Below, one piece after another: positions 273 to 7,402 of a stretch of 39,437 bases of DNA. Position numbers and translations under genes: made by a program. The stretch's first letter is position 1, and every line of letters starts with the position of its first letter. Under the pieces are notes generated by a model. It ran no database searches and was not told the DNA's origin. It was given only the letters and a program-made list of their open reading frames with translations. This DNA is from Candidatus Aenigmatarchaeota archaeon (GTDB lineage Archaea; Aenigmatarchaeota; Aenigmatarchaeia; CG10238-14; SCSR01): the NCBI GenBank assembly GCA_018304615.1, contig JAGVVV010000012.1, positions 1 to 39,437 on the forward strand, written 5' to 3'.

Positions 273-605
273 TTATTTACGCAACTTGTAAGGCTGCCTA
301 TAAATTGTATTGCAGTTTTTGCATTTAATAATCAGCAATTTTCTCTTGCTGTCCAAACGAACTGTTGAAGTCGCTCCTGGCAGAAGCAGACAGTTGCATT
401 TTTTGCAGAACTTTCTTTTCTGCTCTTTCCGCATCCGAACATTGTAACGCAGACTGATTTTTCTCGCCAGTTCCACATATCTTTGCGCCAGTGAAGGGTT
501 TTTTCGGAATTCCTTCTCTGCCAGCGCCAGAAGTATTCCGATTCTTTCCTTCGCGATGTCCTGTTGCCAGTCAGGTTTTTTCATTCGTTTCCTCAATTTC
601 ACCAT
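273..605 (-). CDS. rnp4: Ribonuclease P protein component 4 (Rpr2/Rpp21 family)
   Basis: A 110-residue basic protein. Archaeal RNase P is an RNA with several protein subunits; Rnp4 (the Rpp21 homologue) supports 5' maturation of pre-tRNA together with Rnp1. The sequence shows the two expected parts: an N-terminal helical region (AKERIGILLALAEKEF, then RYVELARKISLRYNVR) and a C-terminal zinc ribbon with CKKC near residue 68 and CKNC near residue 96. The basic tail KKCN...LLPGATSTVRL matches the family's 'C-x2-C, PG, R' layout. Length is normal for the family. It lies about 50 bases downstream of a tRNA-Pro gene on the same strand. The ATG at 605 is a clear start; no Shine-Dalgarno is visible. 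Confidence 0.92.
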   Translation of the reverse strand: MVKLRKRMKKPDWQQDIAKERIGILLALAEKEFRKNPSLAQRYVELARKISLRYNVRMRKEQKRKFCKKCNCLLLPGATSTVRLDSKRKLLIIKCKNCNTIYRQPYKLRK

Positions 606-631
606 AACAATTATTTCTCGATTTCTCGACT

Positions 632-654
632 AAAAAGAAAAAGTGAAGGAAAAA
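632..654 (-). terminator. T-rich terminator after tRNA-Pro(UGG)
   Basis: Immediately 3' of the tRNA, the minus strand reads as several T-runs (TTTTT CC TTCAC TTTTT C TTTTT) with no strong hairpin. Archaeal RNA polymerase commonly terminates at such oligo-T tracts. The Rnp4 start lies about 27 bases further on, so readthrough or a separate promoter is possible. Confidence 0.45.
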
Positions 655-655
655 T

Positions 656-754
656 GGGGTCGCTGGGATTTGAACCCAGGTCTCAAGCGATCTTGAGCTG
701 CCAAAAGCAAGCTTCCCAAGGCTCGAAGCCTAAACCAAGCTAGCCGACGACCCC
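656..754 (-). tRNA. tRNA-Pro (anticodon UGG) with a 25-nt archaeal intron
   Basis: A 99-nt gene folding as a type I tRNA once 25 nt are removed. Acceptor GGGGTCG/CGACCCC is followed by A as discriminator. The D stem is GGCT/GGCT (two G-U pairs), the D loop has G18G19, and the T arm is CTGGG-TTCAAAT-CCCAG. The anticodon stem is CGAGC/GCTTG, with loop CTTGGG before and C after the intron, giving anticodon TGG. The intron occupies 690-714 and interrupts positions 37/38. It forms a canonical bulge-helix-bulge: CTTG pairs with CAAG (4 bp), flanked by 3-nt bulges GGA and ATC, with an AGCT/AGCT intron stem. Cutting after the second base of each bulge restores the anticodon loop. A TATA-like box lies about 35 nt upstream. 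Confidence 0.92.
690..714 (-). other. tRNA-Pro(UGG) intron
   Basis: The predicted 25-nt intron at canonical position 37/38. The pairing CTTG (exon 32-35) with CAAG (intron 3' part) gives the 4-bp central helix, and the flanking 3-nt bulges carry the two splice sites expected for the archaeal tRNA splicing endonuclease. Confidence 0.85.
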
Positions 755-4444: not shown

Positions 4445-5932
4445 TTATTCTTGCACTTCGCCCACGTAAGATTGGGACATTAGCTTTTGAATCGCATTTG
4501 TATTTGTCTCATTAATGAAGCTAAACAGAGCAAATTTGAGTTCCTCATCCCTTGTCGCATTTCTTCCGTAAATGTTCAGTGTTTCATGAGGATCCGTTCT
4601 CCAGTTGTAAAGTTCGAAAGTGTTGTTCGCAGGTCTGAAAATGAGCTTGTATGTGTCTGACCGTACAACAAGGGCTTTTGCAAGAAAATTGCTGTCCGCA
4701 AATACGAAGTTATTTACCTCTTTTCCATTTGCAATAGCTGGAACAAGGTTTTTGCCAGCTAAATTTGCCTCAGAAGGTATTGACACGTTGACCAGATCTA
4801 ATATGGTAGGCATCACGTCTATTAAGCCAGCCATGCTGCTGACGGCTGCCGGACTTCTGTTCGGAATATGAATCATCATTACAACCTGCAAAACGCTATC
4901 GTAGACGTTTCTATGCGACCACAACCCTTTTTCAAACAAGTTCTCGCCATGATCAGAAACAACAACGACAATAGTTTTTTCTAACAGGTTTTTGCTCTTC
5001 AAATATGAAAATAAGTTCCCAAGGGCAGTATCCGCACTGAATACTCCAGCATCGTATCTGGAAATTATATATCCCAAATCAGAGTCATTAAACTTCACAG
5101 TTTTTTTTCCAGTATTTCCTGAAAAGTTTGCGTCAACACGAATCTCGTAGTGATCATCAACTTTTTGAATTGAATTTAACTCGCGATATGTGAACAAAAC
5201 ATCCTTTAGAGGTCCTGAATAGTTGGAGTAAAACGATGTATCGGAGATATCCTTTCTTAAGTAAGGCGCATGAACGTCATATCCGTGCAGGAAAACAAAA
5301 AATTTCTCGTTTCTATTCTCGTCTATCCATTTTATTCCCTGCGACAAAGTCCGATTGAAAGTGCCACCTGTTTCGATATATTCAGAATATCCATAAGCAT
5401 CATGCATCGAACTTTCGATTTGGACATTCGAATCATACGAAAAATAGTTTTCGAAGCCATTGCCGAAACCGAATTTTGGACCAACATAGATGTCGCCGAC
5501 AAAAGCTGCGGTCTTGTAGCCAGAATCCCTCATGACTTTGGCCAACGTGACAGTAGAAGCATTTAATGAGTCGTAAACGGTTTCATTATACTCATTCAGG
5601 ACTTTATGCTGCGCAGGGTAGAGGGAAGTAAAAATTGTAGCGTGCGATGGCAGAGTCCATGAGGTTTGTGAAAAGACATTTGTGAAAATTATGGCATTTT
5701 TGGCAAAATTGTCGAGATTTGGCGTTGTGTTTCTTGGATAACCATAAGCACCTACATGATCGGCACGCAATGTATCGACAGAAATTAAAATGACGTTGCA
5801 ATCCCTGCAAACTAAGTTATTATTTTCATTTCTAGATTTCATAGAGCCGTTAATCAAAAAAAATCCACCAATCAAAAAAATTACAACAATAAAATAAACA
5901 AAATACGCAGAACGGCTGAAAAGCAATTTCAT
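4445..5932 (-). CDS. Sulfatase-like hydrolase/transferase (alkaline phosphatase superfamily), paralogue
   Basis: 495 residues, clearly a paralogue of the downstream gene. It has an N-terminal TM helix (about 10-28), a CRDCNV pair (C42/C45), metal motif SVDTLRADH (D53), SWTLPSH with Thr93 at the nucleophile position, VVSDHGEN (D327/H328) and H340. The key residues up to Thr93 fall at the same numbers as in the paralogue, so the pair diverged by substitution more than by indels in this part. The Thr in place of the formylglycine Cys/Ser argues against a classic sulfatase. It is probably anchored in the membrane with the catalytic domain outside. Upstream lies an 11-bp tandem repeat and then tRNA-Pro(GGG). 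The ATG at 5932 is a good start, with no Shine-Dalgarno. Confidence 0.85.
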   Translation of the reverse strand: MKLLFSRSAYFVYFIVVIFLIGGFFLINGSMKSRNENNNLVCRDCNVILISVDTLRADHVGAYGYPRNTTPNLDNFAKNAIIFTNVFSQTSWTLPSHATIFTSLYPAQHKVLNEYNETVYDSLNASTVTLAKVMRDSGYKTAAFVGDIYVGPKFGFGNGFENYFSYDSNVQIESSMHDAYGYSEYIETGGTFNRTLSQGIKWIDENRNEKFFVFLHGYDVHAPYLRKDISDTSFYSNYSGPLKDVLFTYRELNSIQKVDDHYEIRVDANFSGNTGKKTVKFNDSDLGYIISRYDAGVFSADTALGNLFSYLKSKNLLEKTIVVVVSDHGENLFEKGLWSHRNVYDSVLQVVMMIHIPNRSPAAVSSMAGLIDVMPTILDLVNVSIPSEANLAGKNLVPAIANGKEVNNFVFADSNFLAKALVVRSDTYKLIFRPANNTFELYNWRTDPHETLNIYGRNATRDEELKFALFSFINETNTNAIQKLMSQSYVGEVQE

Positions 5933-5976: not shown

Positions 5977-5983
5977 AATTCGT

Positions 5984-6057
5984 GGGGCTGCCGAGATTTC
6001 AACTCGGGTTGCCGCCACCCCAAGGCGGAGTACTAGAGCAAGCTATACTACAGCCCC
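5984..6057 (-). tRNA. tRNA-Pro (anticodon GGG)
   Basis: A 74-nt intronless tRNA. Acceptor GGGGCTG/CAGCCCC with discriminator A; D stem GTAT/GTAC; anticodon stem CCGCC/GGCGG with loop TTGGGGT (anticodon GGG); variable loop CAAC; T stem CCGAG/CTCGG. The D loop reads AGCTTGCTCTA, giving G18 C19, and the T loop reads TTGAAAT, giving G56. The near-invariant G19-C56 elbow pair is thus replaced by a complementary C19-G56, whereas the other tRNA-Pro in this window keeps G19/C56. The upstream region holds a weak TATA-like AAATACTA about 22-29 nt away, shared with the divergent HerA-like gene. Confidence 0.93.
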
Positions 6058-6088: not shown

Positions 6089-7402
6089 TTGGCAAAAACA
6101 AAAATAGGTTATATGGCGGTAGGAAGTTGGCAAAAGGAGCAAGAGGAGCTGCATAAAAAACAACCCGCGCGTTTCATTGAAGAGCAGCCGTTTGCAACAG
6201 TCGTAGGAAGACTGAAAGAAGATCAAGCCCGTTTCGGCACACAAGGCGTCGGTTACATCGGCAAGCATATCGTTGGCACTGGTGAGGACGCACATACCAC
6301 GACGAAAGTTCTGCTCGACTTGCTGAGGCCTCATATAATACTAATTTCGGGAAAACGCGGAACAGGAAAGTCATACCTCGGTGGAATAATTACAGAGGAG
6401 CTAGCACTACTGCCAAACGAATTCCGACAGAATGTTGCAGTTGTTATGGTGGACACGATGGGAATTTTCTGGAGCATGAAAAGGCCGAACGACCAGCAGA
6501 GCGAGCTGTTAAAGACGTGGAACCTCGAACCTCGTGGATTTGACAATGTAAAAGTTTTTGTTCCGTTCGAGCAGCAAGAAGAGTTTATTCGAGCGGGTAT
6601 ACCGATTGATGAAGGAATTTCAATTTTGCCTTACGAGTTTTCTGCAGAAGAATGGAGCCTTGCCTTCAACCTGAAGAGAACAGATCATATTGCGATAAGT
6701 CTTGAAAAAAATATTAACGAGCTGATTCGGGACGGGAAGAAATTTACAATCGATGATATCATCGCGAAAATAAGAGACGACGCAGGAACGTCGAAGGAAG
6801 TGAAGAATGCGCTGGATAACATGCTGACTGTCGCAGCACAGTGGGGAGTTTTCGGTGAACGCGGAATAAACATCGATGACCTTGTTGTGCCGGGACAGAT
6901 TTCAATTGTTGACGTGTCAAGACTGCGCGCGACAGAGGCGTGGAGCGTGCGAAACTTTCTGGTTGCAATACTTACGAGGAAAATTTATCAATATAGAGTT
7001 TTTGCAAGAAAAGAAGAGGAGGTCGCTAAGATTGAGGGAATAAAGACAACTGGAAAAAAGTATCCGATCGTTTGGCTTATCATCGACGAGGCGCACAACT
7101 TCTGCCCATCAGATTACGAAACTGTTTCCTCGTCCCCAATTCTAACAGTAGCAAAGCAAGGACGAGAGCCTGGTGTAAGTATGATAGTTATCACGCAGAT
7201 GCCGAATAAGATTCATCAAGACATCCTTAGCCAAACAGATCTCGTCATCTCTCACAGGCTCACATCGAAAGCGGATATAGAGGCTCTGCATGCAGTGATG
7301 CAGACGTATTTGTTCGAGGACATGTGGAAGTATATCAACCAACTGCCGAGATGGCCAGGCGCTGCAATAATTCTCGATGACGGAACGGCTGCCGTGATAT
7401 AA
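6089..7402 (+). CDS. HerA/FtsK-superfamily DNA-translocase-like ATPase (DUF87-type)
   Basis: 437 residues. Walker A GKRGTGKS is at about 88-95 and Walker B VWLIIDEAHNF at about 328-338, the latter with the acidic pair and a following AHNF typical of HerA/VirB4-type P-loop ATPases. Further conserved stretches are KQGREPGVSMIVITQMP (sensor-like) and LVISHRLTSKADIEAL (candidate arginine finger). No membrane segment is seen, so the protein is cytoplasmic. Family members form hexameric rings moving DNA or protein, but the role here is unknown; no NurA nuclease is adjacent. The ORF starts at TTG (6089); an ATG at 6113 (MAVGSWQKEQ) is a credible alternative. Its stop overlaps the next ATG by one base (taATG), so it is translationally coupled to a GT-C glycosyltransferase. 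Confidence 0.85.
   Translation: MAKTKIGYMAVGSWQKEQEELHKKQPARFIEEQPFATVVGRLKEDQARFGTQGVGYIGKHIVGTGEDAHTTTKVLLDLLRPHIILISGKRGTGKSYLGGIITEELALLPNEFRQNVAVVMVDTMGIFWSMKRPNDQQSELLKTWNLEPRGFDNVKVFVPFEQQEEFIRAGIPIDEGISILPYEFSAEEWSLAFNLKRTDHIAISLEKNINELIRDGKKFTIDDIIAKIRDDAGTSKEVKNALDNMLTVAAQWGVFGERGINIDDLVVPGQISIVDVSRLRATEAWSVRNFLVAILTRKIYQYRVFARKEEEVAKIEGIKTTGKKYPIVWLIIDEAHNFCPSDYETVSSSPILTVAKQGREPGVSMIVITQMPNKIHQDILSQTDLVISHRLTSKADIEALHAVMQTYLFEDMWKYINQLPRWPGAAIILDDGTAAVI

Follow-up and report, generated by a model that had tools for sequence, protein, structure and literature searches.

A natural, compensated C19-G56 elbow pair in a tRNA-Pro(GGG) gene from an archaeal family without detectable Trm56

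Introduction

Few contacts in biology are as strongly conserved as the tertiary pair G19-C56, the outermost contact between the D loop and the T loop of tRNA. Its readers include several aminoacyl-tRNA synthetases as well as RNase P, RNase Z and elements of the ribosome. Recognition of the elbow is mainly by stacking against the flat surface that the 19-56 pair turns outward (PMC4810234), and the T-loop anchor of archaeal RNase P RNA stacks on the same surface (PMC6565675). Some contacts are base-specific: an arginine of L1 contacts N2 of G19 (PMC3602588), and C56G alone blocks the plant enzyme PRORP1 (PMC5039416). The same replacement abolishes methylation of tRNA-Ser by Trm56 in P. abyssi, while in some archaea a C/D guide RNA directs the formation of Cm56 instead (PMC5372735). 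The reversed pair has been made in the laboratory; in mitochondrial tRNA-Ser(UGA), the G19C mutant loses aminoacylation by SerRS and C19:G56 restores it (PMC10412605), while normal charging is reported for a G19C/C56G tRNA in work cited in PMC3602588.

Here we describe a gene in which this pair is reversed. The window is the whole stretch of DNA that was analysed, 39,437 nucleotides of contig JAGVVV010000012.1 from a Candidatus Aenigmatarchaeota archaeon (GCA_018304615.1), called contig C22 of assembly G000 below.

Results

The tRNA-Pro(GGG) gene and its elbow

The following features of the window are needed to read the elbow.

5983..6057, minus strand: tRNA-Pro(GGG) gene, mature positions 1-73, CCA not encoded (ARAGORN, Infernal and alignment)
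6019..6021, minus strand: anticodon GGG, reading CCU/CCC
6038, minus strand (g on the plus strand): C19, which is G in all other orthologues read
6000, minus strand (c on the plus strand): G56, which is C in all other orthologues read
655..754, minus strand: second tRNA-Pro, anticodon UGG by reading of the sequence, with an intron of about 25 nt and canonical G19-C56

The only tRNA that ARAGORN finds in the window is a minus-strand tRNA-Pro(ggg), and a whole-genome Infernal search with RF00005 scores 5983-6057 at 50.3 bits; the initial annotation had recognized the gene but gave 5984-6057 and no strand, and is corrected here on both points. On the minus strand the gene reads GGGGCTG TA GTAT AGCTTGCTCTA GTAC T CCGCC TTGGGGT GGCGG CAAC CCGAG TTGAAAT CTCGG CAGCCCC A, with stems that form a 7-4-5-5 bp cloverleaf around the GGG anticodon. 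Outside the elbow pair the signature bases are standard (U8-A14, G15-C48, G18-U55, U54-A58 and A57), bearing out the earlier description of the rest of the cloverleaf, and both programs recognize the gene as a tRNA. The minimum free-energy fold of the free RNA is not the cloverleaf, which is common for unmodified tRNAs. Within the main ORFs of the window, CCU and CCC make up 170 of the 435 proline codons.

G15 and G18 are the only G residues of the D loop, AGCTTGCTCTA; with no GG present, C19 is unambiguous, and the T loop, TTGAAAT, gives G56. Another placement of G19 was considered and is ruled out, because the D loop lacks a GG and the column passes from G to C without a gap against the orthologues. 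Positions 19 and 56 thus form a Watson-Crick pair of CG rather than GC identity, as originally proposed. The window gene is the sole exception among the 35 tRNAs found in the assembly, the other 34 of which carry C56. The second tRNA-Pro of the window, offered earlier as an internal control, serves well as one, having both the D-loop GG and C56. This intron-bearing gene was overlooked by the ARAGORN scan of the window; its counterpart on contig C9 of the same assembly is intronless.

Covariation with orthologues

The alignment comprised nine tRNA-Pro(GGG) genes drawn from the assembly and from relatives. Standard pairs occupy 99.5% of the stem and elbow cells, compared with 82% in shuffles, and positions 19 and 56 are paired in all nine genes (eight GC and one CG). 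The window gene differs from its homologues in genomes G035 and G008 at 8-9 of 75 nt; against G035, the closest, all eight differences resolve into four compensated pairs, of which three lie in helices and the fourth is the 19-56 elbow pair. Its stems contain no mismatched pair in the alignment with the orthologues, and neither broken stems nor uncompensated changes, the marks of a pseudogene, are present. Judged from this alignment, the pattern of compensated differences is the mark that selection on a structure leaves, and not that of error or decay.

An error in sequencing or assembly, or a pseudogene in decay, would fit the fact that a single metagenome assembly is available, with no other such tRNA-Pro in 156 genomes of the phylum or in a GTDB scan, and the initial annotation had held that absence from all relatives would suggest a sequencing error. 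The swap is indeed absent from the relatives, yet the paired changes speak against that conclusion: chance or error would have to supply two complementary transversions at exactly the two contacting positions, 38 nt apart, in a gene whose stems lack mismatches and whose every other difference from G035 is compensated. We regard this explanation as exceedingly improbable.

Frequency of the swap

A tRNA-Pro pattern that allowed G or C at positions 19 and 56, with two mismatches, matched tRNA-Pro genes in the majority of the order's 36 genomes examined. Among these, C19/G56 occurred only in the window gene, no intermediate with a mismatched 19-56 was seen, and every tRNA-Pro(GGG) read from a relative had G19-C56. 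A wider swapped-Pro pattern returned no further tRNA-Pro with C19-G56 from 156 genomes of the phylum, and the matches to a GGG-specific pattern in GTDB and viral contigs were all non-tRNA: the GTDB-wide match L088 has no cloverleaf and resembles coding sequence, and the viral match L155 likewise has no cloverleaf. A general swapped-elbow pattern, which sees only about a quarter of tRNAs (its canonical form matches 8 of the 35 in the assembly), gave 28 other matches in the phylum, none of which folds as a tRNA. Since such patterns miss intron-bearing genes and unusual loops, these searches bound the frequency of the swap, known at present from one species only, and do not prove it unique.

The literature searched, mostly open-access papers, yielded no natural tRNA with C19-G56. 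The sole text match, in a tmRNA structure paper, concerns an ordinary A-site tRNA and is probably a transposed label.

Absence of Trm56 from the family

Trm56, the C56 2'-O-methylase (PF01994), was undetected in this assembly, which is 89% complete and to which the window contig may not belong, as it may derive from another species. It was found in none of the 16 genomes of the family, this assembly included, compared with 15 of 20 other genomes of the order and all four archaeal controls (Fisher p of about 3e-6 for the family against the rest of the order, with relatives that are not independent). Loss of the enzyme from the lineage is probable. The enzyme requires C at position 56, where the window tRNA carries G. 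The earlier proposal that Trm56 could not act on this tRNA stands in so far as C56G abolishes its activity (PMC5372735), although the point is weaker in a family in which the enzyme is undetected in all 16 genomes, so that the tRNA probably has no such enzyme to evade.

Other unusual elbows in the family

All but one of the 130 tRNAs read from six other genomes of the family carry C56. The exception, L176, is an orphan tRNA-Thr(UGU) at G010 C55:29092-29164, next to polysaccharide genes, with the compensated pair U19-A56; a canonical Thr(UGU) gene with an intron, L200, is present in G010 too, and the homologues of L176 in the order are partial only. A second orphan, the tRNA-His(GUG) L253 at G008 C33:15754-15825, has the D loop AGAAGCTC, which places an apparent C19 opposite C56, and G008 also has a canonical tRNA-His, L188. 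L278, which seemed to lack the GG, was set aside because it has a D-loop intron instead.

Within this sample, which is limited to Trm56-less genomes of the family, the exceptions are no more than suggestive of an elbow loosened more widely. A more specific proposal is that in the Trm56-less family the identity of the 19-56 pair is free to change as long as pairing is kept, giving C19-G56 in an essential tRNA-Pro and U19-A56 in an orphan tRNA-Thr; we put it forward tentatively, as possible but doubtful. If it were true, the methylase, and not the fold alone, would help to hold G19-C56 constant in archaea.

Gene neighbourhood

Three protein-coding genes of the window are relevant to the position of the swapped gene.

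6089..7402, plus strand: HerA-like ATPase, divergent from tRNA-Pro(GGG), with the same layout in relatives
4445..5932, minus strand: sulfatase-family membrane protein, downstream of tRNA-Pro(GGG)
273..605, minus strand: RNase P protein RPP21 (Pfam Rpr2), with a second copy at C9:36361-36591

The HerA/tRNA-Pro(GGG) arrangement is found in six relatives (G005, G008, G009, G010, G012 and G015), usually with RPP21 near. Because this linkage is kept, the swapped gene is to be read as the positional orthologue of an ordinary gene and not as a stray copy; by synteny, it is the orthologue of the family's HerA-linked tRNA-Pro(GGG). RPP21 adjoins tRNA-Pro genes in the window (273-754) and in several relatives, among them G005, G008, G012 and G022.

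Two copies of the locus in one assembly

Over its full length the window contig matches C9:1-37 kb, with protein identities of about 25-73%, and no other pair of contigs in the assembly shows a comparable match on that scale. C9 carries a canonical tRNA-Pro(GGG), at C9:29362-29436, and a canonical tRNA-Pro(UGG). The assembly has two copies of RPP21, compared with one full match in each of the 15 other genomes of the family; G008 has an extra, sub-threshold RPP21 fragment. GC3 is higher on the C22 copy in five of five gene pairs, and C22 is an outlier in composition, with C9:1-30 kb partly outlying too. The two HerA copies are sister sequences, each the closest relative of the other (96/93 support). 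We conclude from these comparisons that C22 is probably a mis-binned contig of a sister species. In that case the canonical C9 gene resides in another cell, and in its own cell the swapped tRNA may have no other GGG tRNA beside it to read CCU and CCC.

If C22 instead belongs to this genome, the swapped tRNA is a redundant paralogue: the contig would be a diverged, duplicated or laterally acquired surface-polysaccharide locus, on which the tRNA is under relaxed selection while the C9 gene does the work. The canonical gene in the same assembly, the sister relationship of the HerA copies, and the orphan, redundant tRNAs with odd elbows elsewhere in the family (Thr L176 and His L253) are all consistent with such a history. 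It accords less well with the parallel between C22 and C9 throughout 1-37 kb, including RPP21, which is otherwise single-copy in the family, or with the consistent GC3 difference and outlying composition of C22 (C9:1-30 kb being partly outlying also), and a relaxed copy would rarely keep a compensated pair in an otherwise perfect cloverleaf. We therefore think a redundant paralogue unlikely, and favour the mis-binned sister species.

Two further features of the assembly were observed. Contig C18 (6052 bp) has a GC content of 22.6%, compared with about 40% for the assembly, and its end is 74% protein-identical to the end of C9; it perhaps belongs with C22. A tRNA-like gene, L021 (G000 C8:52427-52500), has a GUU anticodon, A1 opposite A72, and G73, and looks odd for an elongator tRNA.

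Discussion

The reading that we consider likely is that the window encodes an archaeal tRNA-Pro(GGG) that works, inherited vertically as the orthologue of a gene found throughout the family, whose elbow flipped from G19-C56 to C19-G56 by two compensating substitutions, with the probable loss of Trm56 lifting one constraint. We hold the compensatory inversion to be neutral or near-neutral, and infer that the tRNA is expressed and functional. The elbow should still form, because a Watson-Crick pair of either orientation can stack on R57, and C19-G56 would continue to show a flat face to RNase P RNA and to the ribosome. Since readers mostly stack, and C19-G56 variants are still charged, the reversed pair should be tolerated; its cost should lie in the loss of base-specific contacts, such as that between the L1 arginine and N2 of G19. 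The bearing of the swap on recognition by RNase P, raised in the initial annotation, is likewise an inference.

Loss of Trm56, which demands C at position 56, would have lifted the constraint on the identity of the base pair, though not on pairing itself, and so possibly allowed the flip. Bacteria and eukaryotes are not known to have Trm56, yet keep G19-C56, and loss of the enzyme can therefore be only permissive and not a sufficient cause.

The flip might instead be adaptive, the altered elbow surface evading a tRNA-targeting enzyme or tuning a reader such as L1, RNase P or ProRS, and the base specificity of L1 for G19 (PMC3602588) and of plant PRORP1, blocked by C56G alone (PMC5039416), lends this some plausibility. 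However, only one isoacceptor is affected in the assembly, and neither a candidate enzyme nor a matching co-variant was found. An adaptive origin is thus very unlikely in our view, and the near-neutral inversion remains the preferred reading.

The gene represents a known molecule in a rare natural form and not a new kind of molecule. Its value is that it distinguishes a requirement for pairing as such from a requirement for G19-C56 specifically, and does so in a lineage that appears to lack the enzyme by which C56 is checked. The family-wide absence of Trm56 is the most interesting addition to the original observation, since an enzyme whose specificity would forbid G56 is apparently absent from the lineage.

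Compared with the other tRNA-Pro(GGG) genes of the family (for example L034, L014 and L048), the window gene has the same length, cloverleaf, anticodon, A73, U8-A14, G15-C48, G18-U55, U54-A58 and flanking HerA-like gene, and differs in having C19-G56 where they have G19-C56. It shares with L176 a compensated elbow of altered identity in a Trm56-less family genome, but L176 is an extra copy beside L200 and has U-A, not C-G. Natural tRNAs with R15/A48 and A54/A58 also show isoacceptor-specific changes of conserved tertiary pairs; these do not involve 19-56, however, and are widespread and conserved, whereas the present swap has been found once. The closest counterparts are the engineered C19-G56 tRNAs (PMC10412605 and the variant cited in PMC3602588), which carry the same double change and a Watson-Crick elbow and, as those sources describe the mutants, retain aminoacylation. 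They are laboratory mutants of other tRNAs from other organisms, while the window gene is natural: a compensated inversion in an apparently functional, possibly unique tRNA, and so an in vivo counterpart to the classic double mutant.
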